Of a DNA stretch of 64,000 nucleotides, positions 9,132-61,724 are shown one piece after another. Each line of letters opens with the position of its first letter. Position 1 is the first letter of the stretch. The DNA comes from Candidatus Poribacteria bacterium (GTDB taxonomy: Bacteria > Poribacteria > WGA-4E > WGA-3G), in assembly GCA_022828145.1 (NCBI GenBank), contig JAJEJA010000093.1, forward strand, positions 1-64,000, in the 5' to 3' direction. Both the position numbers and the translations under genes were made by a program. A model generated the notes under the pieces. It was not told the origin of the DNA. It did no database searches and worked only from the letters and a program-made list of their open reading frames with translations.

Positions 9132-9157
9132 GTTTTTCTTCCTCTGAAAAATAGTTA

Positions 9158-9278
9158 AACGTGAGTTTGATAAATCAAATTTTCGTATTCGAGAGGCGTG
9201 AATTGTAGCACAAACTTTCAGTTTGTGGCACATCTTCGCAAACTGGAAAGTTTGCGCTACATTTATCAAACTCACGTT
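9158..9278. mobile_element. MITE-like inverted-repeat element, family A, copy 1
   Basis: The termini AACGTGAGTTTGATAAAT and ATTTATCAAACTCACGTT form the same inverted repeat as in copies at 53279-53430 and 55538-55688. The interior is different: an arm GCACAAACTTTCAGTTTG pairs imperfectly with CAAACTGGAAAGTTTGCGC. Flanking direct repeats TAGTTAA (9152-9158 and 9278-9284) look like a target duplication. There is no transposase, so it would move only in trans. Confidence 0.8.
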
Positions 9279-9295
9279 AGTTAAACATCTCACTT

Positions 9296-11341: not shown

Positions 11342-11344
11342 ATT

Positions 11345-13372: not shown

Positions 13373-13384
13373 CTGTTGTCTCTC

Positions 13385-15436: not shown

Positions 15437-15447
15437 CTGGCACCTTT

Positions 15448-17484: not shown

Positions 17485-17492
17485 TTAGACCT

Positions 17493-19673
17493 CTATTTCA
17501 TTATCAGCATCTTGCGTGTTGCCGTTTTCCCATCCGCTTTAAATGTATAGAAATAGATTCCACTGGAGACAGGTTCACCGATTGAATTGCGACCATTCCA
17601 GTGTGCTGCGCGCGAACGACTACGATAACTTCCAGCAGTTTGAAATCCCATTCTCAGATGTTGAATTAATTCACCTTTCAAGTTGCGGATGTAGATATTG
17701 ACATCAGCATCTTTCCCTAAGTCATAGGGAATCCAAGTGTCAGGATTAAACGGATTTGGAAAATTGGGTAGGAGTCTGGTTTCATTTGGCTTGGTTTTTT
17801 TTGGATCATAAGAATCTATTAACTGTTCTAAATTAGTTATACCTTTGCGATAAATAGGAGAAGTTTCCTTGATATTATGTGCATCGTTGATCCATTGTTG
17901 AACTCGGTTTAAGTGCTGAGCTGTTATGGAGATAGACTTTGGAGCCCCTGTATGAGAAGATTCACCTAAATGTGCAGCGACGATTAGCAGATCTATAATA
18001 TCTACGTTGCCATCTTTATTTACATCAACTTTAGGGTTGTCAATTGTCATTGATCCAAAACTGTTTGAGATTAATAAAAGGTCTTCAATATCAACCATTC
18101 CGTTCTCGTCAATATCCCAAGGTAGTCTATTTTTAGTTAATGAGAGCGTTTGTTCTAATTTAGTTGATGTAGCTTGCCAACCCGCTTGTAGTTGTTTATG
18201 CAATTGAGATACGAGTTCTGCATTTTCTGGTAGATACGCAACATTAATGGTTTCATTAGGATCATTCTGATAATCATAAAGTTCAGTTGCGAGTTCAGCA
18301 AATTTCTCACCATTTTTGTTATATGCCCCCCATTCGCTATATCTGTAGCGATCCGAACGCAGCGAATATCCATCCACAGTATCTTCGTCTGCCAGTTCAA
18401 CACCGGTCATATCTGCTAATGATTGTTTTTTATACCAAATTTGTCTGGGTCTGCGTCTAACTTGACTAAATGTTGCTGATTTCCATTGTTGTTCAGGTTC
18501 TTCTATTAAAGGCAGCATACTTGAACCTTCAAGTTCTTCGGGGATAGAGAGGTTGCAAGCATCACACAGTGTGGGAAAAACATCAACGAGTTCAACCATA
18601 GCATCTGTTGTTCCTCCGATATTTGTTTGTTCTGGCATATTGACGATCAGAGGTGTAAGTAACCCGACCTCAAATATTGTTCCTTTTTCCCACTTCGCAT
18701 GTTCACCGAGGTGATATCCGTGATCACCCATCAGAACGACTACTGTTTTCTTATTAAGTTCTAACTTTTCAAGTTGATCAAGGATTAATCCTATCTGTGC
18801 ATCAACATAACTTGTACATGCTGCATAAGCATGTATGTATTCCAATACCACTTTGTCTTCGTACTTTGTAGGGTCTGCCTCAAGCGCGTAAAGCGGTGCA
18901 TTTTTTGGTAGTGAATCAGTCTTCGGGAAAGAAAAATCATGAGTTGAATAAAGATCATAATACTTGCGAGGCGCCCGATAAGGCACATGCGGTTTATCAA
19001 AGCCGACCCCGAGAAAAAAAGGTCTGTCCTTTAATATAGATAACTCTTTTACCGCTTCCCGAGCCGTTTGTCCGTCTCTAAGTTCATCATCCGCTACATC
19101 AAGTATCTTCCACTGTGAAGGTCTTGCCCAATAATCGTGAGACTCATACGGTAATCTCCAGTTAGCCTTACTCCAAGAAACATTAGTAGTCCAAGCATAC
19201 CCTCCGTGGACAATTTTACCGATAGAGTGTGTATAATATCCGTTTTCTTTAAAGTGTTGCGGAATTGTGACACCCGGTAAAGTATCTTCGGTACTTGATG
19301 GATTATCTTTAATCGCTGTTGTATTAGGACGCAGCCCGGTCAGAAGTGAAGAACGTGATGGACCGCATAATGGAAAATTGCAGTAAGCTCTATTGAATAC
19401 CGTACCTCTTGCTGCTAACCTGTCAATATTTGGTGTATGCATCTCTGAGTGTCCATAACAACCTAACATTGGACGGAGATCGTCTATCATAATAAATAGG
19501 ACATTATAGGGTGTGTTAGATGTAGCGTTTAGAGAGGGTATAAGACTTGTCGTAAAGGCTGCAGTACCTGCTTTCAAACTTGTAGATAAAAACTCTCTTC
19601 GAGTAAAAGAACGTGCTTTTGAAGTTAGTTTGAGATTGTGATGTTGGGCTGTGATGTTGGGGTCTTTTTTCAT
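17493..19673 (-). CDS. Tat-exported sulfatase with dockerin and FlgD-like tail (5 of 5)
   Basis: The longest copy (726 aa) and first transcribed. Tat signal R25-R26 (RREFL), IDDLRP, formylglycine motif C103-G-P-S-R, MGDHGYHLGE metal site, dockerin repeats, helical linker and an FPNPFNPDTW tail. It carries an insertion in the C-terminal subdomain (about 430-470, VRRRPRQIWYKKQSLADM...) that the other four lack, near where sulfatases shape their substrate pocket. It starts 59 bp after the end of a sulfotransferase gene, which ties the array to the glycan-sulfation genes. Confidence 0.92.
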   Translation of the reverse strand: MKKDPNITAQHHNLKLTSKARSFTRREFLSTSLKAGTAAFTTSLIPSLNATSNTPYNVLFIMIDDLRPMLGCYGHSEMHTPNIDRLAARGTVFNRAYCNFPLCGPSRSSLLTGLRPNTTAIKDNPSSTEDTLPGVTIPQHFKENGYYTHSIGKIVHGGYAWTTNVSWSKANWRLPYESHDYWARPSQWKILDVADDELRDGQTAREAVKELSILKDRPFFLGVGFDKPHVPYRAPRKYYDLYSTHDFSFPKTDSLPKNAPLYALEADPTKYEDKVVLEYIHAYAACTSYVDAQIGLILDQLEKLELNKKTVVVLMGDHGYHLGEHAKWEKGTIFEVGLLTPLIVNMPEQTNIGGTTDAMVELVDVFPTLCDACNLSIPEELEGSSMLPLIEEPEQQWKSATFSQVRRRPRQIWYKKQSLADMTGVELADEDTVDGYSLRSDRYRYSEWGAYNKNGEKFAELATELYDYQNDPNETINVAYLPENAELVSQLHKQLQAGWQATSTKLEQTLSLTKNRLPWDIDENGMVDIEDLLLISNSFGSMTIDNPKVDVNKDGNVDIIDLLIVAAHLGESSHTGAPKSISITAQHLNRVQQWINDAHNIKETSPIYRKGITNLEQLIDSYDPKKTKPNETRLLPNFPNPFNPDTWIPYDLGKDADVNIYIRNLKGELIQHLRMGFQTAGSYRSRSRAAHWNGRNSIGEPVSSGIYFYTFKADGKTATRKMLIMK

Positions 19674-19732
19674 AATGTTCCGGTATTTTTTATTTTGGAT
19701 GTCTAATCGGAAACCTCAATTGAGAAGACTAC

Positions 19733-20734
19733 CTAACTATTATATCCTAATCTTGCCATCGTGTCATTAAAAATTGGTGCAATGTTATGATGTACACTGA
19801 ATTGGTTTCTGGGTGGAATAGTGTGTAACGTTTGTCGTGCATAATCCAGAAAAGTTCTATCAAGTTGCAAATCACAAAAATCACATAGAGGTGGCAGGAT
19901 TTCATCAGGTTTTGATGTAAGCTCCTCAAATCTCACAGGATATATACAATCTGAAGTTATATCTAATAACCGCAGTCCTTCGCGCATTGTTACCACCCAT
20001 TCAATAGCAGCTCGGTCCAAGTGCTGGTCAAAATCTCTTTTTTCTGTAATTATCTCTTTCAAATCATCGTCTGTGGCGACCAACTGTTCTACTAATAATC
20101 TCCATTTACGGTTATCTATCCCCCACCAATCATGTGTTTCACCCTTCAATTGGATCCCGAGTCGTTTGGACCATGCAGCTATGGATTGACACGTATCCCA
20201 TCCATTTCGAATGAGAAAAATGAACTTTGCATCAGGAAACAGTGTTTGCACAAAACCGATTCTAAAAATCAATTCAGGATATTTGTCAACGATTCTATGT
20301 GCGCGTGTTGTAGACAAGTAAGCGCCAAAGAGTTGTTTCGCGCTTTGACACATTTCGTCAGTAGCGTCTTTTGAAGAGAGTCTATAAACACCTTCAATAT
20401 CACTATAACTACCGATGATGTCCTCTCTTGGGTGAATCGTGTGCCACAGTGCCTTCGGTTCATTTAGATAACCGACATCCCGATGCATTGAGAGAACCGT
20501 GCCAAGGGCTGTTGTCCCACTACGCCCCGTTCCTATGATAAAAATAGGCTTTTTTACGGGTCTGAATTTTCGTTTACTGGTTGCGATTCTTCTCAAGAAA
20601 GAGAGAACAAGCGGATTTATCCAACGTCCTTTTGTCGTTGCCGGTCGTCCTTCAAAGAAGAAGTAGCTAATCAAACGAGGGATAACTTTCTTTGGACGTG
20701 TTCTGATGTATTTTATATTTAGCTGCGCAATCAT
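19733..20734 (-). CDS. Sulfotransferase, P-loop family
   Basis: A 333-aa sulfotransferase using PAPS as donor. The 5'-phosphosulfate-binding loop is IIGTGRSGTTALGTVLSMH (about 66-84), and the 3'-phosphate region is AKFIFLIRNGWDTCQS, with R and S in the usual places. No signal peptide is seen, so it acts in the cytoplasm, presumably on lipid-linked glycan intermediates. It sits between another sulfotransferase and the first sulfatase. The acceptor is unknown. Confidence 0.88.
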   Translation of the reverse strand: MIAQLNIKYIRTRPKKVIPRLISYFFFEGRPATTKGRWINPLVLSFLRRIATSKRKFRPVKKPIFIIGTGRSGTTALGTVLSMHRDVGYLNEPKALWHTIHPREDIIGSYSDIEGVYRLSSKDATDEMCQSAKQLFGAYLSTTRAHRIVDKYPELIFRIGFVQTLFPDAKFIFLIRNGWDTCQSIAAWSKRLGIQLKGETHDWWGIDNRKWRLLVEQLVATDDDLKEIITEKRDFDQHLDRAAIEWVVTMREGLRLLDITSDCIYPVRFEELTSKPDEILPPLCDFCDLQLDRTFLDYARQTLHTIPPRNQFSVHHNIAPIFNDTMARLGYNS

Positions 20735-38594: not shown

Positions 38595-41159
38595 CTATAG
38601 TCTCGGATCAACTGTTTCGCTTTCAAGTGCTAAAACACCAAACACACATTCATGGACTTTGGATAAGGGTTCATAGTTAACAAAACGTTCTAATGCTTCA
38701 ACACCCAATGCAAACTCCCGTATAGCCAATGAGCGTTTTTTAGATAGACCTCTGGATTTGAGTCGTTCTAAATTATGGCGTAAAGTGTATTCAGGTCCAT
38801 AGATGATACGCAGGTATTCACGTCCTCTACATTTGACAGCGGGTTGCACTATCCCTCGCTTACCTTTAGCAACGAAATCGTAAGGTTTTATGACAATGCC
38901 TTCACCACCACTTTCAGTGAGCTTTTCCCACTGTTGTGTAGCATCCGTTTCGCTTATAGGGTCAGACAGGTCAACTGTGTCATAAGATGTTGCAAACAGT
39001 AGATCATTATCATCATTTTGAGACAGTTTTTTAAGCATCTCCATGTGCCACTGATGGTCTTTATCAAAATAGACTTTACCTTCGGTCGCTAACAGATGAA
39101 AAGGCGCAAGTTTCAGATCCGTGATAGTTTTTACTTGCCAACAGTACCGTCTATAGGCTTCAGTATATCCTTTGACAGATGCTGCGCGTTCCTGAAACAC
39201 ATCCAGCATTTTCTTCACACTTACACCGCGTTGCTCAGTGGACATCAACGATGTAATTGCCTCGTCAACAGCAACCTGAGCAGATGCTGCAACCGGTGCA
39301 TATTGCTGTCGTAATAACTCCTGTGCTTTAACTGACCACGGCATTAACTCACAATCAAGACATAACCAATCTGTATTCAAGGATTCCCATAATCCCGCTT
39401 TATCAGCTGCATTCTTCACGCGTGTCAACAGTTCTGTTTCCACAGAGACATCGTCAAAAAATGGTCTACCGGTGCGTGTGTAGCAAGTGCCAATTGTCTC
39501 TACAGAAATACCGAATCGTTTCTTAGCAGATTCTGTATCCCGACAGACGACAACGATTGCCCGTGAACCCATGTGTTTCTCTTGCCAAATTACTTTTGAT
39601 ACACCTTGATTACGATAGTATGTAAATGCTTCTGTTGGATGTTCAAGTAGATCAGCCGCTTTTGACGTTTCACAGGGTGACATCGTCGGTGGCAGATAGA
39701 TTAACCACTTCGGGTCGACGGCGAAACGACTCATCACCTCAAGTGCGTTGACAGTATTCTCTTCACGAATGGTTACATTGTGGTTGAGACGGGTACTGAT
39801 AATACGTTTTCCAATGACATCATTTATGTTTAGAATACCGTCATCAATATGTTTTTGTGTGGCAGACGTTCTGCTTGATTCATCAATTAGCGGTTTGGCA
39901 GGTTCATAATAGGTGCTGTGCGCGGGAACAGATTCAAGTTCTCTTTCAGGATATCGCAATGCCGTCAAATGCCCTCCAAAAACGCAGCCTGTATCAACAT
40001 TGATGGTGCGATTAATCCATTGCGGTTCTGGAACCGGTGTATGTCCATATACAACAGTTGCCGTTCCTCTATATTCTTCTGCCCAATTAAGCCGTTCAGG
40101 CAGACCGAATTCATCTGTTTCTCCTGTCGTTTCACCGTAGAGTGCAAACTCTCTAACACGTCCGGATGCTCTACCTTGCATCTCCTGCTTCATACCAGCA
40201 TGTGCCACGACCAACTTTGCATCATCAAGAACATAATGACTGATTAAGCCCTCAATAAAATCAGCAACCTGTGACCTAAATTCTTCCGATTCTTTTTCTA
40301 ATTGAGACATAGATTCTGCTAATCCGTGGGTCCTATTAACATTCTTACCGCGTAATGCTCTGGCAAGTTTTACATCATGATTTCCCGGAACACAGATCGC
40401 AACACCGTTCTTGTGCATATCCATTACTATTCGCAGCACTTCAGCAACCTTTGGACCTCGGTCTACATAATCGCCAACAAAAACGACTTTCCTACCATCT
40501 GGATGGGAAATAGACATCTTCCCATCAGTCTCTATTCTAATATCATATCCTAAATTTTGTAGTAATTCAAGAAGTTCATCATAACAACCGTGTATATCCC
40601 CAATAATGTCAAAAGGACCGTGTTCATCTGTTCGGTTAGTCCATAGTTGTTGGCGTTCTATCCTCGCAGATTCCACTTGCTCTGGTGAGGAAAGGACATA
40701 GACGAAGTTTCTGAAACCTTCGCGTTTTAGACCACGCAACGACCTTCTGAGTTGACTGATCTGTCTGCGAATTACATCGGGTCTTATATCTCTGTCAGGT
40801 CTTCCTTCGTTTCGTTCTTGACAAATTTTGGATGGTAGATTAAAAACAATGGCAGCTGTCAGGTAATGATATTTTCGTGCTAATGCTTGTAAAGTTTTGC
40901 GTGCATCTGCTTGCACATTTGTAGCATCAATAACAGTCAGTTTTCCTGCTGACAGTCGTTTAGCAGCGATGAAGTGTAGGACATCAAACGCGTCTTTTGT
41001 TGCCGCTTGATCGGTCTCATCGTCAGAAACAATACCTCTACAGAAATCTGAAGATAGAATTTCTGTCGGTTTAAAATGTTGTTGTGCAAAAGTCGACTTT
41101 CCAGAACCTGAAGGACCGATGAGAATTACAAGTGATGGATCAGGGATATTGATATGCAT
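38595..41159 (-). CDS. pnkp: Polynucleotide kinase-phosphatase-ligase (bacterial Pnkp, RNA repair)
   Basis: An 854-aa RNA end-healing and sealing enzyme with three domains: 5'-OH kinase (Walker A GPSGSGKS, K21), metallophosphatase removing 2',3'-cyclic and 3' phosphates (DIHGCYD with D188 and H190, GDYVDRGP, GNHD), and adenylyltransferase/ligase (KHMGSR with nucleophile K528). Length and K21 match the Clostridium thermocellum enzyme (from memory). Bacterial Pnkp needs Hen1 to ligate and yields 2'-O-methylated, cleavage-resistant RNA. hen1 is upstream, but an Rpn cassette lies between them. Confidence 0.95.
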   Translation of the reverse strand: MHINIPDPSLVILIGPSGSGKSTFAQQHFKPTEILSSDFCRGIVSDDETDQAATKDAFDVLHFIAAKRLSAGKLTVIDATNVQADARKTLQALARKYHYLTAAIVFNLPSKICQERNEGRPDRDIRPDVIRRQISQLRRSLRGLKREGFRNFVYVLSSPEQVESARIERQQLWTNRTDEHGPFDIIGDIHGCYDELLELLQNLGYDIRIETDGKMSISHPDGRKVVFVGDYVDRGPKVAEVLRIVMDMHKNGVAICVPGNHDVKLARALRGKNVNRTHGLAESMSQLEKESEEFRSQVADFIEGLISHYVLDDAKLVVAHAGMKQEMQGRASGRVREFALYGETTGETDEFGLPERLNWAEEYRGTATVVYGHTPVPEPQWINRTINVDTGCVFGGHLTALRYPERELESVPAHSTYYEPAKPLIDESSRTSATQKHIDDGILNINDVIGKRIISTRLNHNVTIREENTVNALEVMSRFAVDPKWLIYLPPTMSPCETSKAADLLEHPTEAFTYYRNQGVSKVIWQEKHMGSRAIVVVCRDTESAKKRFGISVETIGTCYTRTGRPFFDDVSVETELLTRVKNAADKAGLWESLNTDWLCLDCELMPWSVKAQELLRQQYAPVAASAQVAVDEAITSLMSTEQRGVSVKKMLDVFQERAASVKGYTEAYRRYCWQVKTITDLKLAPFHLLATEGKVYFDKDHQWHMEMLKKLSQNDDNDLLFATSYDTVDLSDPISETDATQQWEKLTESGGEGIVIKPYDFVAKGKRGIVQPAVKCRGREYLRIIYGPEYTLRHNLERLKSRGLSKKRSLAIREFALGVEALERFVNYEPLSKVHECVFGVLALESETVDPRL

Positions 41160-41195
41160 AGAGGTATCGTCCGCACCAATTGAATATATAAAAGC

Positions 41196-41261
41196 GAGTT
41201 GCTTTTCTGATATTCAAGCTTATCTGATTATTGTATCAGAATCTGTCAGATAAAGCAACTC
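41196..41261. repeat. 66-bp inverted repeat upstream of pnkp
   Basis: GAGTTGCTTT (41196-41205) pairs perfectly with AAAGCAACTC (41252-41261), and inner parts (TCTGATA / TATCAGA and TCTGTCAGA) can extend the stem. It sits 37 bp before the pnkp start codon. It may be a terminator/attenuator for transcription from the Rpn gene or a small mobile hairpin. Confidence 0.6.
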
Positions 41262-41279
41262 CGATTAAGGGTGGGGGTG

Positions 41280-41407
41280 TGTAAAGTTTTTGCACTCTTA
41301 TTGTCAGAATCGCGGATTACGCGGAGGACACCCCAGTTAACATAGCTGGCACAAAAGGGGTTTCTGGAGCATTATATGACTTTGATCGGCTACAAAGAAG
41401 CACAATA
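41280..41407. repeat. Direct repeat flanking the Rpn cassette, downstream copy
   Basis: Blocks TGTAAAGT, GAATCGCGGA, GGAGGACACC, GGAGCATTATATGACT and GGCTACAAAGAAGCACAAT occur in the same order and orientation at 42405-42503 on the other side of the Rpn gene. This copy has about 28 extra bases in the middle. Confidence 0.7.
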
Positions 41408-41453
41408 TGGCAGAATGTGCTTCTGTTCAAGGTGATATATGGATTGGTATTTA

Positions 41454-42347
41454 TTACTTACCGTTCTTTGAAAAGTCAATGTCCTCAAACGTTTCTGCGG
41501 TGAGGACTTGGTCAAACAGATCATCAAGGTGGGCAAGGTCATCTATAGCCGAAATCTCATTGAGAACAGTGTCTGACTTCTCAGCAAACCGATACTGTAC
41601 TATTTTGAGAACGTCTGTACGTTTCTCGTTGATTCTACCTTCTTCAATCCCTTGTTGTCTGCCGCGTTGTATCACGGCTTCGTAAACAGGTGATTCTCTC
41701 ATAAGTGCCTCCAGTTTACCATCCTGAAAAAATTCAGATGGATGAATTAAACCCCCAAATACAGAGAGGGCATATAATAACGTACCCCGGGTACGGCTGT
41801 CTACCGGTGCAGCCTTCGTCGTTTCTATACACCTCTCAATCCATGCTTTAGGTGTGGTACCTGTAGGGGGTCTCATCAAAGGTGTAAATGGTAACAAACC
41901 AACATTACCCGGATCCAAATATGACTCGCCTTCTAACTCGTAGACCCTAATCACATTATACGTAAACCGCAACCCTCCGATGCCTTCATCTCCATACGTA
42001 TAATGTCCGGGGTCATTTTGTCCCGCAGGGGGTCGGAGGTAGAAGACCGTGGAATAGACGTTCATCTCATACTGGTGGACGAGATAACTTACATACGCCA
42101 GCATCCGTAGTGGCATCGGTTTATCCCGACTCTCCTCAGTTTGTGCTTCTATATGTAGGATTGCCTCTTCATCTCTATCAGGCAGCGAGACACGAAACGT
42201 CAGATCACTGTGATGTAACTTCACCGTAGGTTGCTCAGTGTTCAGAGAGTCCCTCACTATCACTTGTTCTGTAGTTAGAGCCACCGCTGCAAGTTGGTTG
42301 GGCGAGTATTCTCCTAAATGTTTGAATAGTTCATCATAATGTTCCAT
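41454..42347 (-). CDS. Rpn-family recombination-promoting nuclease / PD-(D/E)XK transposase-like protein
   Basis: A 297-aa protein of the Rpn/YhgA-like (PD-(D/E)XK nuclease family transposase) group. The N-terminal nuclease region has DLTFRVSLPD (acidic residue) followed by EAILHIEAQTE, where the E-x-Q stands in for the usual E-x-K. A C-terminal tail EGRINEKRTDVLKIVQYRF ends with a short helical region. Such proteins cut DNA and promote recA-independent recombination. It lies between hen1 and pnkp, flanked by imperfect direct repeats. The C-terminal end recurs at 36038-36418. Confidence 0.82.
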   Translation of the reverse strand: MEHYDELFKHLGEYSPNQLAAVALTTEQVIVRDSLNTEQPTVKLHHSDLTFRVSLPDRDEEAILHIEAQTEESRDKPMPLRMLAYVSYLVHQYEMNVYSTVFYLRPPAGQNDPGHYTYGDEGIGGLRFTYNVIRVYELEGESYLDPGNVGLLPFTPLMRPPTGTTPKAWIERCIETTKAAPVDSRTRGTLLYALSVFGGLIHPSEFFQDGKLEALMRESPVYEAVIQRGRQQGIEEGRINEKRTDVLKIVQYRFAEKSDTVLNEISAIDDLAHLDDLFDQVLTAETFEDIDFSKNGK

Positions 42348-42404
42348 GATGAGTATTATACACTATATTAAGGAAAATATCAAGGAGATGCTTTGCGAGG
42401 GGTA

Positions 42405-42503
42405 TGTAAATATTTTGTCACTCTATTTGTCTGAATCGCGGAGGACACGGGAGGTTTTTCTGGAACATTATATGACTCTGATTGGCTACAAAGAAGCACA
42501 ATC
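42405..42503. repeat. Direct repeat flanking the Rpn cassette, upstream copy
   Basis: This is the partner of 41280-41407: TGTAAATATTTTGTCACTCT, GAATCGCGGAGGACAC, GGAACATTATATGACTC and GGCTACAAAGAAGCACAATC. It runs into the 30/31-bp tandem repeats. The rest of 42348-42404 shows nothing. Confidence 0.7.
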
Positions 42504-42577
42504 AAGGATGAATGTGCTACAAAGAAGCACAATCTAACAGAATGTGCTACAAAGAAGCACAATCAAGGATGAATGTG
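42486..42577. repeat. Three tandem 30/31-bp repeats (family C)
   Basis: Units start at 42486, 42517 and 42547. Each reads CTACAAAGAAGCACAATC, then 6-7 variable bases (AAGGAT or TAACA), then GAATGTG. GTGCT and AGCAC inside the unit form a small hairpin. Related units lie at 41390-41420, 46845-46883 (opposite strand) and 62733-62790 (opposite strand). Confidence 0.85.
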
Positions 42578-42629
42578 CTACATCTGTTGAAGATTTCTTA
42601 TAAGTTATCAAGCAGTAACAATTTGATCC

Positions 42630-44024
42630 TCATACAGATTGCGCTTCAAACACTGCCATCTGTGTAGGCGCACCTATGTTTTCTTCGGTTTCTCCTATTG
42701 GGTAAAACTTAACACTATAACTGAAACGATCAGATACTTTAGAACCCCATGATTCAAACTCTTCACGGGTCCACTCAAAACGGTGATCCCTATGGCGTAA
42801 CTTACCAACTGGTAGATTCTCAAACTGGACATTATATTCTACATTTGGTGTTGTCAATACAACTATTTGGGGACGCGCATATTCAAACAATACCCTTTCG
42901 AAAGATGTAAGTCGTCCTATATCCAAATGCTCAATTACTTCAATTACAGCAGCTGCCTCATAGCCTTGCAAGCGATCGTCTCTGTAGCAGAGCGAACCTT
43001 GCATCAACGTTATACGTTCCGTCTGTCTGTCTGGCAACCTATCTAAACGCAACCTCTGATGTGCTATTTTCAGTGTTTGATGCGAAACATCGATGCCGAC
43101 TATCTCTTCAAACTGTTTATCTGCCATCAGTTTACGTAAGAGTTTCCCTTCACCACAACCTAAATCCAGAACGCGTTTTGCCCCTGACTGTTTCATGAGC
43201 TCTACTGCTTTCGTGAGACGAAGTTCGTTTAGTCCAATCCTCTTTTCAATCTTCTCTTCCTCCTGAATTACGTCAATCTCCTCCTCATCCGTATCACCGA
43301 AATGCCTCAATACGTGCTGGGTTAATTTTCGTTGATGTTTAAGGTAACGACTGACGATCTGTTCCTGCTCTGGATGTTCAGAAAGCCAACCTTCTCCATG
43401 TTTCAATAGTTTTTCGATTTCTGCATCAGCAACCCAATAGTGTTTCTCATCGTCAAGCACGGGGATAAGTACATAGAGATGTGATAGCAGTTCGCTGAGA
43501 CAACATGTTTTCTCAAGCGTAACACTATAATAGCGACTCTCTCCCCACTCAGGAAATTGAGAATCTAACTGGTATCGGTGTGTATCAACCCGATAACCGA
43601 GTGGTTCAAAGAGTTTTCGTAGGAATCTTTCACCCCCACGACACGGTAAGGTAGGCAACTTTACTGTCAGAGGTATAGTCGTTTTCACAAGTTCGGGACG
43701 GTCTTTACATTTTCCAGATAAAGCAGTACCAAAAACCTTAGCAATAGCAACACTCATGAAGGATGAAGCAACATACGGACGGTCATTAACATATTCCGCT
43801 AATGTAAGACTATCTCTACTTCGACTGTACTGTCTTCGCACAAGTCCAACTGAATCAATTTCAAGCAATAGACACACAGTACATCTCTCAGGAGATGCTT
43901 CAGGATAGAATACATGTGCTTGTCCAAAGGCAACATCAAAGGATTGTAACCTATCTGGATGTTTGTGCAGCAAGAATCCAAGGTCTGTTGCGGGGGAATG
44001 TGTTGTGGAGATTGTCAGAAGCAT
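42630..44024 (-). CDS. hen1: Hen1 3'-terminal RNA ribose 2'-O-methyltransferase
   Basis: A 464-aa protein: an N-terminal domain beginning MLLTISTTHSPATDLGFLLHK, typical of bacterial Hen1 and needed to activate Pnkp ligase, and a C-terminal SAM methyltransferase (VLDLGCGEGKLL, 285-296). The Mn-binding residues E362, E365, H366 (EVIEH) and H414 (HRDHRFEW) match, at a constant offset of four, the E366/E369/H370/H418 set recalled for C. thermocellum Hen1. It marks the 3' terminal 2'-OH at breaks before sealing. It is the first gene of the minus-strand block. Confidence 0.95.
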   Translation of the reverse strand: MLLTISTTHSPATDLGFLLHKHPDRLQSFDVAFGQAHVFYPEASPERCTVCLLLEIDSVGLVRRQYSRSRDSLTLAEYVNDRPYVASSFMSVAIAKVFGTALSGKCKDRPELVKTTIPLTVKLPTLPCRGGERFLRKLFEPLGYRVDTHRYQLDSQFPEWGESRYYSVTLEKTCCLSELLSHLYVLIPVLDDEKHYWVADAEIEKLLKHGEGWLSEHPEQEQIVSRYLKHQRKLTQHVLRHFGDTDEEEIDVIQEEEKIEKRIGLNELRLTKAVELMKQSGAKRVLDLGCGEGKLLRKLMADKQFEEIVGIDVSHQTLKIAHQRLRLDRLPDRQTERITLMQGSLCYRDDRLQGYEAAAVIEVIEHLDIGRLTSFERVLFEYARPQIVVLTTPNVEYNVQFENLPVGKLRHRDHRFEWTREEFESWGSKVSDRFSYSVKFYPIGETEENIGAPTQMAVFEAQSV

Positions 44025-44195: not shown

Positions 44196-44909
44196 ATGAA
44201 CCGTAGAAACTTTTTAATTTCAGGAAGCACAGCATTAGCAGGAGTTTTACTAACTGCCAATCCATTACGATTGTACGCTAATGCTGACGACGCACATGAA
44301 TATAAACTTCCGAAATTACCGTATAAGTACGATGCACTTGAACCGCATATTGACAAACGCACGATGGAGATTCATTATAGCAAACACCATCAAGGTTATG
44401 TCAATAAACTCAACGCTGCAATAGCAGATTACCACGATTTATCTGAAATGTCTATTGAGAATTTGCTACGCAATATTGAAAAAGTGCCGATGAAAATACG
44501 GCAAGCAGTCATCAATAGCGGTGGCGGACATGCTAACCATACCCTGTTCTGGAACACCATGATTTCTGATGGCACGGAACTTTCAGGTAAAGTTGCCGAA
44601 GCACTTCAAACAACCTTCGGATCACTCAAGAGTGCCAAAGAGAAATTTGCTACTACAGCAAAAACACACTTCGGGTCTGGGTGGGCTTGGCTTGTCGTTG
44701 ATGACAAGAAAAAGCTGCAGATTTACGCAACGAAGAATCAGGACAGTCCTTTGATGGAAGGACATACACCCCTCCTCGGACTTGATGTTTGGGAACATGC
44801 ATATTACCTAAAATACCAGAACAAACGTGGTGATTATGTTGATGCATGGAACAACGTTGTCAATTGGAAACAGGTTAACCTCAATTACGTTGAAGCAATG
44901 AAAGCGTAG
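44196..44909 (+). CDS. Fe/Mn superoxide dismutase with Tat-like signal
   Basis: A 237-aa iron/manganese superoxide dismutase. The metal ligands are H60 (IHYSKHH), H115 (GGHANHTLFW), D197 and H201 (LDVWEHAYYL). Unlike the usual cytoplasmic enzyme it has about 30 extra N-terminal residues with NRRNFLISGS and a hydrophobic core, a twin-arginine signal, so it should act outside the cytoplasm. It has a good promoter and ribosome binding site. The following molybdoenzyme gene begins 9 bp later and also carries a Tat signal. Confidence 0.92.
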   Translation: MNRRNFLISGSTALAGVLLTANPLRLYANADDAHEYKLPKLPYKYDALEPHIDKRTMEIHYSKHHQGYVNKLNAAIADYHDLSEMSIENLLRNIEKVPMKIRQAVINSGGGHANHTLFWNTMISDGTELSGKVAEALQTTFGSLKSAKEKFATTAKTHFGSGWAWLVVDDKKKLQIYATKNQDSPLMEGHTPLLGLDVWEHAYYLKYQNKRGDYVDAWNNVVNWKQVNLNYVEAMKA

Positions 44910-44918
44910 GTGGTGACA

Positions 44919-46058
44919 ATGGATCGTAGAGATTTTATACGTATGAGTGGGTTGTCGCTGACCGGTTTCCTGCTAAGTCCGTGGGGTGTTTCAGCATTTC
45001 CTAAACGTGAGAACGAGGAACTGATTCCTTTCCTTGATCAACAACCAGCAAAAAGCGGTCTACTTGATTGGAGCACTTTAGACTCATTCATTACACCAAA
45101 CGATGAATTTTTTAATGTTTCACATTACAATAAACCTGTCATTGATCAAGATACTTGGCAATTGGAGATCAGCGGATTAGTTGATAATCCGATGATGCTA
45201 ACGATTGATGACATTAAAGCCCGTCCAAAGCAGGACGTTATCTTTACGTTAGAATGTTCAGGCAATCACGGATTTCCAACATTTACTGGTGCAATTGGGA
45301 ATGCCAAATGGGCTGGAACGCCACTTGCTCCTATTCTCAAGGAAGCAGGCATTAAAGCGGATGGTATTGAAGTCATATTTTTCGGACATGACTCTGGCGT
45401 AGAGAAACGACGAGGTAATGATATGCCGCAGAACTTTGCCCGCAGCATGTCCGTGGAAGATGCCTTAGAAGAAACGAATATTCTCTGCTATGAGATGAAC
45501 GGTGAACCCTTACCACAACCAAACGGTGCCCCCCTACGACTTATTGCTCCTGGGTGGTACGGTATCGCATGTGTCAAATGGCTAAAACGTATTGAAATCC
45601 GAGATACTCGCCTTATGAACAGATTCATGGGACGTGACTATGTTACGATACGAGAGGAGAAACGACCCGATGGAGAATCTGTTTGGATGGAGACATCTGT
45701 CGGTAGGACAAAACTGAAGTCCTTGCCCGCCAAAGTTACCCGCATTGGTGACGAATATCGCATTTACGGTGCAGCTTGGGGGGCTCCCATCAAAAAGGTT
45801 GAAGTCCGAATTGACGATGCGCCTTGGCAAGAGGCAACACTCGATCCTGTAGAAGATGATGCCAATTCTACCAAATGGGCATGGAAAATTTGGCACCTCA
45901 ACTGGAGTAATCCACCTAAAGGGGAACACACCATTGTCTCAAGAGCAATTGATACTAAAGGGAACATACAACCCGCGGGGGATTCCGATTACATCACAAA
46001 AAAACGAACCTATTGGGAAAGTAACGGACAGGTTGTTCGTAAAATCCGTATTGAATAG
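44919..46058 (+). CDS. Sulfite-oxidase-like molybdopterin-dependent oxidoreductase, Tat-exported
   Basis: A 379-aa protein with a Tat signal (DRRDFIRMSGLS), a molybdopterin domain containing the Mo-ligand Cys in FTLECSGNHGFP and GAIGNAKWAGTPL, and the C-terminal Mo-co dimerisation domain (about 260-370). This is the SorA/sulfite oxidase fold; sulfite or another small oxyanion or sulfoxide is the likely substrate in the periplasm. No heme domain is fused. ATG 44919 is chosen over GTG 44910 because GTAGGTGG precedes it at suitable spacing and the Tat motif follows at once. It is probably co-transcribed with sod. Confidence 0.88.
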   Translation: MDRRDFIRMSGLSLTGFLLSPWGVSAFPKRENEELIPFLDQQPAKSGLLDWSTLDSFITPNDEFFNVSHYNKPVIDQDTWQLEISGLVDNPMMLTIDDIKARPKQDVIFTLECSGNHGFPTFTGAIGNAKWAGTPLAPILKEAGIKADGIEVIFFGHDSGVEKRRGNDMPQNFARSMSVEDALEETNILCYEMNGEPLPQPNGAPLRLIAPGWYGIACVKWLKRIEIRDTRLMNRFMGRDYVTIREEKRPDGESVWMETSVGRTKLKSLPAKVTRIGDEYRIYGAAWGAPIKKVEVRIDDAPWQEATLDPVEDDANSTKWAWKIWHLNWSNPPKGEHTIVSRAIDTKGNIQPAGDSDYITKKRTYWESNGQVVRKIRIE

Positions 46059-46067
46059 GAGACGCAA

Positions 46068-46838
46068 TTGATCAACATTACCGATGAACAGAAACAGTTG
46101 TACCGTGATGAAGGCTATTTCATTTTGGAGAACGTAATTCCAGACAATCTCTTGGAGTTGCTACGAGGTGAGTGTGGCACCTTCATTCGTCAGATGGAGG
46201 CACGGATGGACAAGGAAAACCAAGAGGTTATTGGACTAAATCACAGAAACAAACGTTATTTTGTCTCCAACTGCTTTAGACAACAACCCAAACTGCGTGA
46301 ATTCCTATTCAGCGACCTCATGGCAGATATCTGCCGTGCAACACTGGGTGACACATCATATCTTTTTTGGGAACAGTATGTCGTCAAAGGGGCAGAAGCA
46401 GGTATGAAGTTTAGTTGGCATCAGGATTCCGGTTATGTCGGTTATCCTGATCATAAACCTTACCTAACCTGTTGGTGTGCTCTTGATGATATGTCTGAAG
46501 AAAACGGCACAGTCTATGTTATGCCGTATTCACAAATCGGCATCCGTTCATGGGTTAAGCATATACGAGAAGAAGGCAGCAACGATCTGGTAGGATACTT
46601 CGGACCGGAGAAGGGAGTTCCTGCCATCGTTCCTGCTGGCAGCATTGTAGTATTCACGAGCATCAATTTCCACAGTAGTGGAACAAATACGACCGACACA
46701 ATGCGACGAGCTTACCTTGCACAGTATTCTGCTGAACCTTTGTTATCTCATGATGGGAGTCGTTTGTGGGGTAACGCTGAACCTTTATTAAGGGACGGGA
46801 AGTCTGTTGTGGGAGAACCTCCGCCGCAGGTTTCTTAG
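46068..46838 (+). CDS. Phytanoyl-CoA dioxygenase (PhyH) family, Fe(II)/2-oxoglutarate oxygenase
   Basis: A 256-aa cytoplasmic oxygenase with a complete iron site: H118-x-D120 in SWHQDSGY and distal H202 in INFHSSGTN, plus an arginine (R213 or R214) to bind 2-oxoglutarate. It starts at TTG 46068, 7 bp after TAGGAG-like AATAGGAGA; no in-frame ATG lies nearby upstream. It is 9 bp after the molybdoenzyme gene, hence the same operon. Substrate unknown; PhyH proteins are greatly expanded in this kind of organism. Confidence 0.88.
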   Translation: MINITDEQKQLYRDEGYFILENVIPDNLLELLRGECGTFIRQMEARMDKENQEVIGLNHRNKRYFVSNCFRQQPKLREFLFSDLMADICRATLGDTSYLFWEQYVVKGAEAGMKFSWHQDSGYVGYPDHKPYLTCWCALDDMSEENGTVYVMPYSQIGIRSWVKHIREEGSNDLVGYFGPEKGVPAIVPAGSIVVFTSINFHSSGTNTTDTMRRAYLAQYSAEPLLSHDGSRLWGNAEPLLRDGKSVVGEPPPQVS

Positions 46839-55537: not shown

Positions 55538-55688
55538 ACGTGAGTTTGATAAATCAGAACAAATAACTACGTAGGTTGGGTTGAGAAACGAAACTCAACA
55601 TCTTGATCCATTATAGGGCAATACCTGTCGGGTTTCGTGCCTCTACCCGACCTACAACGCATATTGCATTTAATTATCAAACTCACGT
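55538..55688. mobile_element. MITE-like inverted-repeat element, family A, copy 3
   Basis: Ends ACGTGAGTTTGATAAATCAG and TTAATTATCAAACTCACGT are identical to those of 53279-53430. The core is nearly the same but one arm has changed to CTACCCGACCTAC, so the central stem now has mismatches. Flanking TAGATTA on both sides (55531-55537 and 55690-55696) fits a target duplication. Confidence 0.87.
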
Positions 55689-55717
55689 TTAGATTACATA
55701 GAAATTTAGGAAGTTTC

Positions 55718-57001
55718 ATGATGCAAGTAGAAATGCGATACGGTTATGGCACAGTTGCTATAGACATCCTTGATAAGAACCTGGTAGGTGTTCTTGATAC
55801 AACTGAAACTGTGCCAATAGCCAATCCAGAAGAAGCAATTTGCGATGCCATATCAAAACCAATTGCATCAGATGCATTAGCAGATATTGCAGCAAGTCGT
55901 GAAACAGCATGCATAGTTATCTCTGATATAACCCGTCCTGTTCCTAATAAAGTGATTCTTCCCCCGATTTTGGAGACTCTTGAACAGGCAGGCATTTCAC
56001 AAGAGAAAATAACAATTCTCATAGCAACAGGAATTCATCGTCCCAACGAAGGTAAAGAACTTGAGGAAATGGTTGGGCGTTCAATAATGAACACCTATCG
56101 TATCGTCAATCATTTCTCTCAAAAACCGGAAACACATACATTTCTCGGTGAGACCCATAAGGGAACACCCGTATACATTGATAAGACATACCTCAATGCC
56201 GACCTTAAAATAGTTACAGGTCTGATTGAACCACATTTAATGGCTGGATATTCTGGAGGGAGAAAAGCAATCTGTCCAGGACTTGCATCAATAGAAACCA
56301 TGAAGGTGATGCACGGACCGGAATTGATGGAACACCCCAAATCCGCTGTAGGTATAATGGATGGGAATCCATTTCACAACGAAGCAACCGAAATTGCCAA
56401 AATGGCAGGTGTAGATTTCAATTTAAACGTCTCCATAGACAAGAACCGTCAAATTACAGGAATTTTTGCTGGAGATATCGTTGAATCGCACAGAGTCGGT
56501 ACAAAATTTGTTGAACAAAACGCTAAAACTACAATTCCGCAACCCGTAGATGCAGTAGTCGTCTCCAGTGCAGGATATCCATTAGATACTACATTTTATC
56601 AAGCCATAAAAGGGTTACTGACTGCTTTTGAAATAGTAAAGCAAGGTGGTACTATTTTGCTTGTTGCAGCTTGCAGTGAAGGGATTGGCAGCAAACCTTT
56701 TACGGATCTACTGCTAAAAACCGATGACCTAACAGTTTTTGTTAAAGGACTATACAATCCAGCGAATTTTGTTATCGATCAATGGCAGTTGGAGGAATTA
56801 GCAAAAGTCGCGCGTAAAGCTGATATTATGTTCTATACTGACGGAATTCCATATCAACAACTCGCAAAACTTTTCGTTCACCCGTTACGGAACCCACAAG
56901 ATGGAATTGAGGAAATACGCAAACGGTATGGAGACGAAGCAACTATAGCTGCCATACCAGAAGGCCCCTATGTTCTCGCTAAGATAGAAAATAACAAATA
57001 G
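55718..57001 (+). CDS. larA: LarA-type nickel-pincer racemase (lactate racemase family)
   Basis: A 427-aa DUF2088 protein. Residues H107 (ATGIHRP), H173 (GLIEPHLMAG), K183 (GGRKAICPG) and H199 (KVMHGP) match the recalled L. plantarum LarA ligands H108, H174, K184 and H200. K183 carries the pincer cofactor. The start is ATG 55718 (TTAGGAAG 5 bp upstream); a longer frame enters the family-A element. larB, larC and larE, which build the cofactor, are not in this window. The substrate may be lactate or another 2-hydroxy acid. Confidence 0.9.
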   Translation: MMQVEMRYGYGTVAIDILDKNLVGVLDTTETVPIANPEEAICDAISKPIASDALADIAASRETACIVISDITRPVPNKVILPPILETLEQAGISQEKITILIATGIHRPNEGKELEEMVGRSIMNTYRIVNHFSQKPETHTFLGETHKGTPVYIDKTYLNADLKIVTGLIEPHLMAGYSGGRKAICPGLASIETMKVMHGPELMEHPKSAVGIMDGNPFHNEATEIAKMAGVDFNLNVSIDKNRQITGIFAGDIVESHRVGTKFVEQNAKTTIPQPVDAVVVSSAGYPLDTTFYQAIKGLLTAFEIVKQGGTILLVAACSEGIGSKPFTDLLLKTDDLTVFVKGLYNPANFVIDQWQLEELAKVARKADIMFYTDGIPYQQLAKLFVHPLRNPQDGIEEIRKRYGDEATIAAIPEGPYVLAKIENNK

Positions 57002-58889: not shown

Positions 58890-59690
58890 TTAGAGTATTA
58901 ATTCAGATATCGCTTCTGCAACACCATTCGCATCATTACTTGACGTAATGTAATCCGCGCAGTCTCTAATTGGTTGGACACCGTTTTTCATTGCAATACC
59001 GAAGCCTGCTGTCTTAATCAGACTCTCATCGTTATAACTATCACCAAATGCGACTGTCTCTTTGATAGGTATATTCAACTGTTTTACAAGTGCTGTCAAC
59101 GCGCTACCTTTTGAAACATCGGGATTCATGAATTCTATGTACTCAGGCTGAGTCTGTGTTACATAGAGTTTTCTTGAATATGTAGATTTGAAATGTGCTA
59201 AAAGGCTCTGAAGTTTCTCCGGTGGATGTATAATCAGTAACTTTGTCGGTTTTTCACCAGATAACTTCTGCAAATCACCAACCGCTGTAGCCGAAACACC
59301 TGTTCTAACTTCATACAACTCACTCCATTTATTTCTGTTTGCCACATAAAGTTCATCATTCAGACAAAAATTAAGGTGCAAATCCTGCTCTTTACAGTCT
59401 CTGATAATTGCAGCTGCGTATTCTGCAGGTACAGGTGTATGGTATAAAACGCTATCTGTAACAGCATGCTTCACCATGCCACCGTTATAGGAAATAATGG
59501 GGTTTTCCAATCCGATGAGATCGCTGATCGGCTTCATGGATTGGTGCATCCTCCCTGACACTAAGATCACAAGTATTTCGTTTGCAATAAGTTGATGCAA
59601 CGCCTTCAGATTCTCACCTGAAACTTCGTGATTGCTATTCAACAACGTTCCATCTAAATCAAAGGCTGCCAAACGACACGGTATTTTCAT
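58890..59690 (-). CDS. HAD-family Cof-type hydrolase
   Basis: A 266-aa HAD phosphatase of subclass IIB. The nucleophile is in FDLDGTLL (about 10-17), VSGR is motif II, a Lys lies in KGSALTALV, and GDSYNDESL is motif IV. These cytoplasmic enzymes dephosphorylate sugar phosphates or flavin/pyridoxal phosphates. It lies 36 bp downstream of the ABC ATPase gene and may be co-transcribed; no substrate is assigned. Confidence 0.9.
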   Translation of the reverse strand: MKIPCRLAAFDLDGTLLNSNHEVSGENLKALHQLIANEILVILVSGRMHQSMKPISDLIGLENPIISYNGGMVKHAVTDSVLYHTPVPAEYAAAIIRDCKEQDLHLNFCLNDELYVANRNKWSELYEVRTGVSATAVGDLQKLSGEKPTKLLIIHPPEKLQSLLAHFKSTYSRKLYVTQTQPEYIEFMNPDVSKGSALTALVKQLNIPIKETVAFGDSYNDESLIKTAGFGIAMKNGVQPIRDCADYITSSNDANGVAEAISELIL

Positions 59691-59726: not shown

Positions 59727-60845
59727 TTACCAGATTCCCATTTCTGTATCACGGTCAAATAGGTGCATCTGTTCATCATCAAAGTCCAACCATACCTTCT
59801 CACCAATATCTACTTTGAAAGTTGGATGTGTTCTGACTCGCAATACTATCGATTCCTGTGTTTCAGGATGTATTCCAAGACTGAGATCAAGGATGTTAAC
59901 TGCTCCGAGTGGTTCAATTAAGTGAACATCTGATACAATTTTCCTACCAACAGCTTCTCTTGACACCCTTACATGCTCAGGTCTAACACCTAAGACATAT
60001 CCATTCTTCTCTTTAATCGCGTTTAACTTCGACTTTTGCTCATGTGAGAGATCTAAAACCGCATCGGTATGATCAATCTGTAGGACTGTGTTTCCCTGAT
60101 CTGATGTTAACTGTGCATCCAGTAGATTCATTGATGGCATCCCCATAAAACCCGCAACAAATAGGCTTTTCGGTCTGTTGTACACTTCATAAGGTGTTCC
60201 GACCTGTTGTAATACACCTTGATGCATAACAACGATTCTATCTGCAAGGGACATAGCTTCTACCTGATCATGCGTTACAAAGATCGTCGTCGCGCCTATT
60301 TCGTGATGAAGATGTTTGATTTCCGCACGTGTATCAATACGAAGTTTGGCATCCAAATTCGCCATCGGTTCATCAAGGAGATAGACCTTAGGTTGACGAA
60401 CCATTGCCCGACCAAGTGCGACACGCTGCATTTCACCGCCACTGAGTACACCCGGTTTCCTATCTAATATCTCAGTAATCTGCAGTATCTGTGCTACTTT
60501 TCTGACCCGAACATCTATTTCAGGTTTAGCAACTTTTACGGCTTTTAGTGGAAAAGCGATGTTCTCATAGACAGTCAAATGCGGATAAAGCGCATAGAAC
60601 TGAAACACAAACGCAATATCTCGGTCTGCAGGAGACATATCGTTTACGCGATGTTCATCTATAAGGATATCACCAATTTCTGGATGTTCTAAACCAGCGA
60701 TAAGTCGTAATGTTGTTGTTTTTCCGCAACCTGACGGTCCAAGAAAAACAACAAACTCCTTATCCTGTATCTCTAAGTTAAAGTCCCTGACTGCAAAGAC
60801 ATTACCGAAACGTTTTACAATGTTCTTAAGTTGAATATGTGCCAT
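59727..60845 (-). CDS. Sugar ABC transporter ATP-binding protein (UgpC/MsmK/MalK type)
   Basis: A 372-aa ATPase: Walker A GPSGCGKTT, Q-loop FQFYALYPH, signature LSGGEMQRVALGRA, Walker B VYLLDEPMANLD, switch His in FVTHDQ. The C-terminal OB/TOBE domain (about 240-370) is typical of the carbohydrate CUT1 class. No permease or binding protein gene is adjacent, so it may serve one or several transporters elsewhere, as MsmK does. Confidence 0.92.
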   Translation of the reverse strand: MAHIQLKNIVKRFGNVFAVRDFNLEIQDKEFVVFLGPSGCGKTTTLRLIAGLEHPEIGDILIDEHRVNDMSPADRDIAFVFQFYALYPHLTVYENIAFPLKAVKVAKPEIDVRVRKVAQILQITEILDRKPGVLSGGEMQRVALGRAMVRQPKVYLLDEPMANLDAKLRIDTRAEIKHLHHEIGATTIFVTHDQVEAMSLADRIVVMHQGVLQQVGTPYEVYNRPKSLFVAGFMGMPSMNLLDAQLTSDQGNTVLQIDHTDAVLDLSHEQKSKLNAIKEKNGYVLGVRPEHVRVSREAVGRKIVSDVHLIEPLGAVNILDLSLGIHPETQESIVLRVRTHPTFKVDIGEKVWLDFDDEQMHLFDRDTEMGIW

Positions 60846-60863: not shown

Positions 60864-61664
60864 TTACGGACTATGATCAGTATCTACTGGAGTCTCATCG
60901 TTTTCTAAGAAGCGATCAATTGTATTACGAGTTGCTGGACTTGTTCTGAAGTCTGCAATCCAGGGCTGTCGGAAATATGCCTGTTTCTCTCTTGGAAGAC
61001 CATTAAGGACTACCGGTGGAATACGTAGACGATGCCAATGTGTAGCAAGATGAGAATAGGCATTAAGCACTGCAATACGTGGCGTCTCACGTTGCCACAC
61101 TGGGCCCGCATGACATAAGTTCTCAGTAAAAAAGATTGCACTACCAGCAGGACACTCGTAAGTCATGAGGTACGGACTGCGTTTCCCATCCTCTAACGAC
61201 ATGTGGTCAGGATGCATCTGAAAATTTGATTTGTGGCTTCCTACAATAAAGTGTGTTGCACCATCGTTCTTGGAAATATCTGTCATCTCAAAAACGACGC
61301 GCACCATACCAGCATGAATCCTACCATTGTGCACTCGGTAACCGAAGATTGGATCACCTTGACGCGGACCACCACCGTGTAATCCACCGTGTTCTTGACC
61401 TTTCTTACGCCAGACAGAAAATGTGCTTTCCATACGGATGTCTGGACCTATAATTTCGTGTAATACATCAATCACTTTTGGATGATCTATAAGTACATTG
61501 CACGCACCACCAGGAACTGCCCTATGTTCTGGAGGAAGTGATTCTCGATCATTACGAATTCTATCAAGTTGGTCAACAATTGCATCTACTTCATCTTTGC
61601 TGAGAATTGCAGGACGAACTAAAAAACCTGTTAGGTCAAACCTAAATTTTTCTTCATCAGTCAT
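60864..61664 (-). CDS. PhyH-like protein with an H-G-G iron site
   Basis: A 266-aa phytanoyl-CoA-dioxygenase-like fold. The second half has RVVFEMTDISKNDGATHFIVGSHK, distal H185 in NLCHAGP and R196 in TPRIAV. Where the family has H-x-D, this protein has GLHGGGP (H96-G-G98) and, just before it, EHGG (H92), so the iron-binding carboxylate is not visible. A missing carboxylate occurs in Fe/2OG halogenases, but also in inactive relatives. It sits between the ABC ATPase gene and the PEP-hydrolase-family gene. Confidence 0.78.
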   Translation of the reverse strand: MTDEEKFRFDLTGFLVRPAILSKDEVDAIVDQLDRIRNDRESLPPEHRAVPGGACNVLIDHPKVIDVLHEIIGPDIRMESTFSVWRKKGQEHGGLHGGGPRQGDPIFGYRVHNGRIHAGMVRVVFEMTDISKNDGATHFIVGSHKSNFQMHPDHMSLEDGKRSPYLMTYECPAGSAIFFTENLCHAGPVWQRETPRIAVLNAYSHLATHWHRLRIPPVVLNGLPREKQAYFRQPWIADFRTSPATRNTIDRFLENDETPVDTDHSP

Positions 61665-61724
61665 AATACTGTCTCCTTTGCAGTAAACCTAAAAGTGTCA
61701 ATTCTTCACACATTATCTAAAAAT

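Follow-up and report, generated by a model that had tools for sequence, protein, structure and literature searches.

The window, by which we mean the whole 64,000-nucleotide stretch of Candidatus Poribacteria contig JAJEJA010000093.1 that was analysed, carries a minus-strand open reading frame that runs from an ATG at 61664 to 60864 and encodes a protein of 266 amino acids. A Shine-Dalgarno-like AAAGGAG (61673–61679) precedes the ATG, and the plus-strand reading of 60864–61664 is interrupted by stops; the original prediction was silent on strand. The product is a PhyH-family (PF05721) Fe/2OG oxygenase, scoring 40.9 bits against a curated cut-off of 22, and belongs to a HygX-like clade that lacks the Asp of the usual iron motif. 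The proximal motif is not the typical H-x-D/E, which HygX and the halogenases also lack, and instead reads H96-G97-G98 (codons at 61371–61379, minus strand, as are all codons given here). The protein contains two HGG triplets, at residues 92–94 and 96–98. The distal iron ligand His185 (61110–61112), Arg196 at the 2OG-binding position (61077–61079) and the RVVFEMTD...GSHK core, whose G142-S143-H144-K145 is encoded at 61230–61241, are all retained, just as had been claimed along with the LHGGG that stands in place of H-x-D. Glu181 (61122–61124), which precedes the distal His by four residues, is the proposed replacement carboxylate. The contrast drawn earlier with another PhyH gene of the window (46068–46838, plus strand), which lies outside the system described here, also holds: its product reads W-H-Q-D, with a normal H118-Q119-D120 (46419–46427).

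Read along the minus strand, the PEP_hydrolase-like gene comes first, followed by PhyH, the gene for a sugar-type ABC ATPase and that for a Cof HAD phosphatase. The upstream neighbour encodes a PEP_hydrolase-like TIM-barrel protein (PF09370; 61725–62552), which is found on the same strand in 14 of 81 neighbourhoods, a set that includes the window and several loci too short to show neighbours. Downstream lie genes for a MalK/UgpC-like ABC transporter ATPase (59727–60845) and a Cof-type HAD phosphatase (58890–59690), each present in 11 of the 81. Some homologues adjoin a sulfatase, a UxuA-like TIM barrel, a Gfo/Idh/MocA oxidoreductase and a phosphodiesterase, others a xylose-isomerase-like protein and DUF1611, and one PEP_hydrolase locus (L023) has an altronate/galactarate dehydratase upstream. 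These neighbours weakly suggest a role in sugar or sugar-acid breakdown. Our guess, by analogy with HygX and from the neighbours, is that the substrate might be a compound of the sugar or sugar-acid type; HygX acts on an aminoglycoside, which agrees with this idea. In one close relative (L001, 3877–4884) a gene for an RRXRR protein (PF14239) sits between the PEP_hydrolase-like and PhyH genes.

Promoter and terminator scans gave about what shuffled sequences give (12 promoter sites against a mean of 10.7; one terminator against 2.2). One promoter-like site matching at 11 of 12 positions (62628–62600, minus strand), to which we attach no weight, precedes the PEP_hydrolase-like gene. A phage origin was considered and rejected: the best PHROGs match reached only E 0.082, and the best 50 of 157 viral-structure matches at E 0.001 or better were remote (9–17% identity). 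Among these 50, the matches with telling names were mostly PhyH or 2OG proteins. The host is probably a sponge symbiont.

Elsewhere the window holds five consecutive sulfatase genes (7491–20734, minus strand; products of about 680–730 amino acids, two with detected dockerin-type domains) together with genes for a sulfotransferase and a Wzi-like protein. An RNA-repair pair, Pnkp (kinase, phosphatase, ligase) and Hen1, occupies 38595–44024 (minus strand) with one ORF lacking a Pfam match between the two. A Fe/Mn superoxide dismutase, a molybdopterin oxidoreductase and the H-Q-D PhyH follow in a row at 44196–46838 (plus strand), and a LarA-family nickel-pincer racemase, which matches seven NCBIfam models but reaches the cut-off of none, is encoded at 55637–57001 (plus strand).

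The conservation of the altered motif was assessed in a subfamily of 81 sequences, comprising the window protein and 80 of the 120 homologues found. These 80 are 73–95% identical to it over the best segment, and their records come from four phyla: Poribacteria (most), Gemmatimonadetes/Gemmatimonadaceae, Latescibacterota/Latescibacteria and Zixiibacteriota. His96, Gly97, Gly98, Glu181, His185 and Arg196 are each present in 81 of 81. The alignment called for in the original prediction thus finds H-G-G invariant, a constancy far beyond chance. Since His96 never varies while residue 92 is His in only 76 of the 81, we take His96 as the ligand position, and the first triplet (92–94) is ruled out as the iron motif. 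The constancy of H-G-G, Glu181, His185 and Arg196 across phyla argues for an active enzyme. The window protein is very probably a working Fe/2OG oxygenase.

Searching the host genome with PF05721 gave 87 matches, to which a search with the A1 profile added one, for a total of 88 PhyH proteins. High PhyH numbers in Poribacteria have already been published (in a section of Kamke 2014, PMC3909097), and one Poribacteria PhyH, according to a passage of the PHYHD1 paper (PMC12709175), complements growth on 2′-O-methylcytidine. By alignment the acid of H-x-D/E is absent in 18 of the 88. An Asp or Glu stands at position −4 from the distal His in 16 of these 18, as opposed to four of the 70 with H-x-D/E; one of those four is itself a clade member, and the other 66 have no acid there. 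When all columns with at most 30% gaps were scanned in eight residue classes, that of Glu181 ranked first for association with loss of the H-x-D acid (Fisher p 4.6e-12), and other clade-marking columns reached 3e-9 or weaker. The two Asp-less proteins without an acid at −4 are a pair on contig C94, encoded near 17–18 kb (L166). They read H-S-H, fall outside the HygX-like clade and possibly have a three-His site.

A quick tree unites 16 of the 18 Asp-less host proteins with two host H-x-D proteins, five orthologues and HygX in a group of 24 rows (SH-aLRT 99), HygX being a long branch within it. The H-R-G protein C17_55537 is also a long branch. In a second quick tree of 45 hand-picked rows HygX sits beside the H-x-D outgroup with weak support (77) and C17_55537 does so with moderate support (83), so that the clade membership of both is tentative. 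When up to 150 candidates per genome were scored with the clade profile A2, each of the genomes behind eight non-Poribacteria loci yielded between 26 and 89 matches at E 1e-10, which indicates that the clade is large. From these eight genomes 74 distinct Asp-less sequences were inspected, and some of the remaining matches may be ordinary PhyH proteins.

The relation between the two acids was followed in 288 distinct sequences, deduplicated on residues 41–200 and in part hand-picked from the matches listed. The clade profile at E 1e-15 was passed by 264 and failed by the other 24, which were dropped; five N-terminal domains of two-domain proteins, which lack the His ligands (one is cut by the region end), were also dropped, leaving 259 sequences with both His. 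Among these, 31 have the usual Asp or Glu and 228 are Asp-less, the latter being drawn from the subfamily homologue loci (88), genomes G013–G020 (74), G001–G012 (49) and G000 (16), plus HygX. An acid at −4 or −5 was found in 227 of the 228 Asp-less members. At −4 it is Glu in 211 and Asp in nine (220 together), and seven carry Asp at −5 in sequences of the MDGGCTH type; the sole member with neither is L193_2339. The third residue of the proximal motif varies (G, S, A, N, V, H and others), and the −4/−5 acid hardly does. Arg occupies the position of Arg196 in 228 of 228, rows without both His having been set aside beforehand. Eight of the 31 Asp/Glu-containing members have Glu at −4, seven of them of a HAD/HSD-YGA type that possesses both acids and one reading HGE; the other 23 have no acid there.

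Clustering at 50% identity left 47 representatives, among which an acid at −4 occurs in 32 of 35 that are Asp-less (three have none at −4) as against one of 12 that contain Asp (11 have none). Because 18 of the 19 sequences behind the selecting profile have the acid, the sample leans towards it. The association of the acid with loss of Asp partly reflects shared ancestry, the acid being mostly tied to one clade. In the second quick tree an H-R-D group without the acid (five rows, 98) joins L193_2339, which has no acid at −4/−5 (87); together they are sister to a group of the H-A-S/H-A-A type with Glu (99), inside the Asp-less group with the acid (99 and 95). Within one nested subgroup H-R-D thus seems to have been restored and Glu lost, which on this topology would be one exchange of acids, not many. 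Most sequences of the H-R-D subgroup carry Thr in place of this Glu.

Three columns are acidic in more than 90% of the 228 Asp-less members, namely those of Asp10, Asp129 and Glu181. Asp10 (1.0 in Asp-less against 0.94 in Asp-containing members) and Asp129 (0.93 against 0.90) are about equally frequent when Asp is present, whereas the acidic fraction at Glu181 falls from 1.0 to 0.26; only Glu181 therefore fits the role of a replacement. The columns of Glu79, Asp60 and Asp134 are acidic less consistently (0.82, 0.63 and 0.83) and were rejected as well.

Related loci show other arrangements of PhyH genes. In five loci of about 10.8 kb (L066, L067, L070, L072 and L074), two or three HGG-type PhyH genes stand in tandem beside H-I-D and H-Q-D PhyH genes, with up to six PhyH genes per locus. 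Five further loci (L286–L290) encode two-domain PhyH fusions in open frames of 584–608 amino acids. In these the N-terminal copy lacks the His ligands (in L286 its first motif lies outside the coverage) and the C-terminal copy reads H-D-G, H-D-A or H-G-G, with Asp at −5.

The closest solved relative of the window protein by both sequence and fold is HygX, which reads LHGG...NEALMH. By sequence index its two iron-site His are His102 and His206 and the Glu at −4 is Glu202, with a possible shift of one in the numbering of the PDB entries. The single-sequence alignment pairs its HGG with residues 92–94, and the profile alignment pairs LHGG with LHGG at 95–98. The A2 profile, which has no HygX among its members, matches HygX at 5.3e-28 and the next family, EctD, at 2.2e-14, a lead of 14 orders of magnitude. 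Two AlphaFold2 models of the window protein (mean pLDDT 75.4 and 81.2) have the predicted fold of a PhyH barrel, and HygX is the top structural match of each. In the first fold comparison HygX scored Z 18.6 against 16.5 for the next match, and in the second Z 21.1 (2.5 Å over 194 residues) against 19.9 for the next non-HygX entry, a small margin. In the model with pLDDT 81.2, strand 93–96 ends at His96, and strand 175–180 is followed by a loop (181–184), after which His185 opens the next strand; this would place Glu181 in the turn that leads straight into the distal His. Residues 100–118, the loop after HGG, are below pLDDT 50 in that model.

From these data we propose that His96, His185 and Glu181 (H-x-G...E-x3-H) complete the iron site, or that Glu181 at least lies beside it, in the loop directly before the His185 strand. 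Cupins bind metals at HxH(x)3-4E sites, a precedent that makes the spacing of the proposed site plausible. The usual Asp position would be cleared, which might make room for a substrate that is bulky or resembles a sugar, and instead of halogenating, the enzyme would carry out a conventional C-H oxidation driven by 2OG, either hydroxylation or oxidative cyclisation. Whether Glu181 acts as the replacement carboxylate by coordinating the iron directly seems to us an evenly balanced question, and we give the same even weight to the combined reading of an active Fe/2OG oxygenase of the PhyH superfamily with its carboxylate relocated to Glu181. An acid supplied from elsewhere, one of several explanations offered in the original prediction, is the best supported of these, given its presence in 227 of 228 Asp-less members, the Fisher p of 4.6e-12 and its absence from the H-R-D subgroup. 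Against relocation stand the acid at −4 alongside a normal Asp (four of 70 host paralogues and the HAD/HSD-YGA subgroup) and the lack of either acid in L193_2339 and the two H-S-H paralogues.

That −4 acid beside a normal Asp would be less surprising if the enzyme used two His ligands, with water in the third position and Glu181 only in the second sphere, holding the water, a His or the substrate. AspH, with an HXG...H motif, hydroxylates with two His alone, and the Asp-to-Gly variant of FIH retains some activity (both in passages of PMC10947486). If water alone filled the site, however, it would not be obvious why 227 of 228 members keep an acid at −4 or −5, or why it was lost where Asp returned; we regard a site of this kind as rather unlikely, though it is the chief rival. 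A decayed or repurposed protein that has lost iron binding is far less credible. Its motif is altered, and the N-terminal copies of two-domain relatives have indeed lost the His ligands, but His96, His185 and Arg196 are fixed in all 81 subfamily sequences at 73–95% identity across four phyla. Arg196 is likewise fixed in the 228 members of the wider Asp-less set (preselected for both His), and HygX has been crystallised with iron and with nickel plus 2OG. The loss of metal binding suggested earlier is accordingly disfavoured.

The suggestion that chloride or bromide takes up the empty Asp position, as in the Fe/2OG halogenases, fares little better. The HXG/A motif has been used for halogenase mining (excerpt of a 2026 preprint, PMC12871659), the H-G-G of the window protein conforms to it, and Poribacteria mostly inhabit marine sponges (section of PMC3909097), where halide is plentiful. 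The same preprint, in the part consulted, nevertheless cautions against false positives from HXA/G. In SyrB2 and CytC3 the first motif is HQA and Ser stands at −4 (our alignments show STLMH and SNTMH), where the clade has Glu or Asp and the window protein Glu181. Neither the chlorinating-enzyme model TIGR01762 nor HalD (PF23169) matches the window protein up to E 1. The TIGR01762 cut-off is exceeded in none of 84 genomes of the phylum, with weaker matches (E 1e-20) in 64 of them when up to 24 candidates were scored per genome; the weaker match in the host genome, at C59:119780, is an H-Q-D protein. Replacing Asp by Ala or Gly in the prolyl hydroxylase P4H gave an inactive enzyme and no halogenation (passage of PMC2767507), and HygX, with the same HGG motif, belongs to an oxidative-cyclisation pathway, as a review passage states. 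Taken together, the Ser at −4 in SyrB2 and CytC3, the missing TIGR01762 and HalD matches and the HGG of HygX make halide binding improbable.

Returning to the relocated carboxylate, we suggest, with slightly less than even confidence, that an iron site of the form H-x-G...(E/D)-x3-H is used by a very large PhyH clade, in which the acid would have left the proximal loop for the turn preceding the distal His and, in at least one lineage, returned. The host genome would contribute 18 members to the clade, and genomes of Gemmatimonadota, Latescibacterota and Zixibacteria probably tens each. The 2OG oxygenases are recognised by H-x-D...H, and H-x-G/A serves as a halogenase signature; here an abundant and well conserved clade breaks the first of these. 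If our reading is true, the second picks the clade up wrongly, and HXG-based mining, to which it could contribute false positives, would mislabel many of its enzymes as halogenases. A simple sequence rule, an acid at −4 or −5 from the distal His, would then separate the two. The members also combine the two acids in every way (Glu alone, both, Asp alone, or neither), a natural series for probing the mobility of the third ligand. In a search that covered mainly open-access literature we found neither the motif nor an expansion beyond Poribacteria described, and as far as that search shows the breadth of the clade and the acid rule are undescribed. The window protein itself is a member of the HygX-like kind; the size of the clade and the acid rule are the noteworthy part.

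Among known systems, HygX of hygromycin B biosynthesis in Streptomyces hygroscopicus is the nearest. It shares with the window protein the PhyH barrel, LHGG and Glu at −4 from the distal His, at 22–24% identity in fold alignments. The two differ in setting: HygX serves the synthesis of an aminoglycoside antibiotic, while the window gene has catabolic-looking neighbours and many paralogues. The titles of the HygX entries in the PDB (4XC9, 4XCA, 4XCB and 4ZPI) name complexes with iron, with nickel and 2OG, and with hygromycin B. To our knowledge it is the only member of the clade to have been characterised or to have a solved structure, and its authors, McCulloch and colleagues in 2015, reportedly described variation in metal coordination. 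The ordinary PhyH enzymes EctD, PHYH and PHYHD1 share the family and the barrel, but keep the H-x-D that the window protein lacks. SyrB2 and CytC3, whose substrates sit on carrier proteins, can be linked by sequence to both PhyH and the clade profile and have a first motif without Asp, as does the window protein; they differ from it in having HQA and Ser in place of HGG and Glu, and the chlorinating-enzyme model does not match it. AspH, which is of a different family from PhyH, resembles the window protein in its HXG...H motif and hydroxylates without a protein carboxylate.
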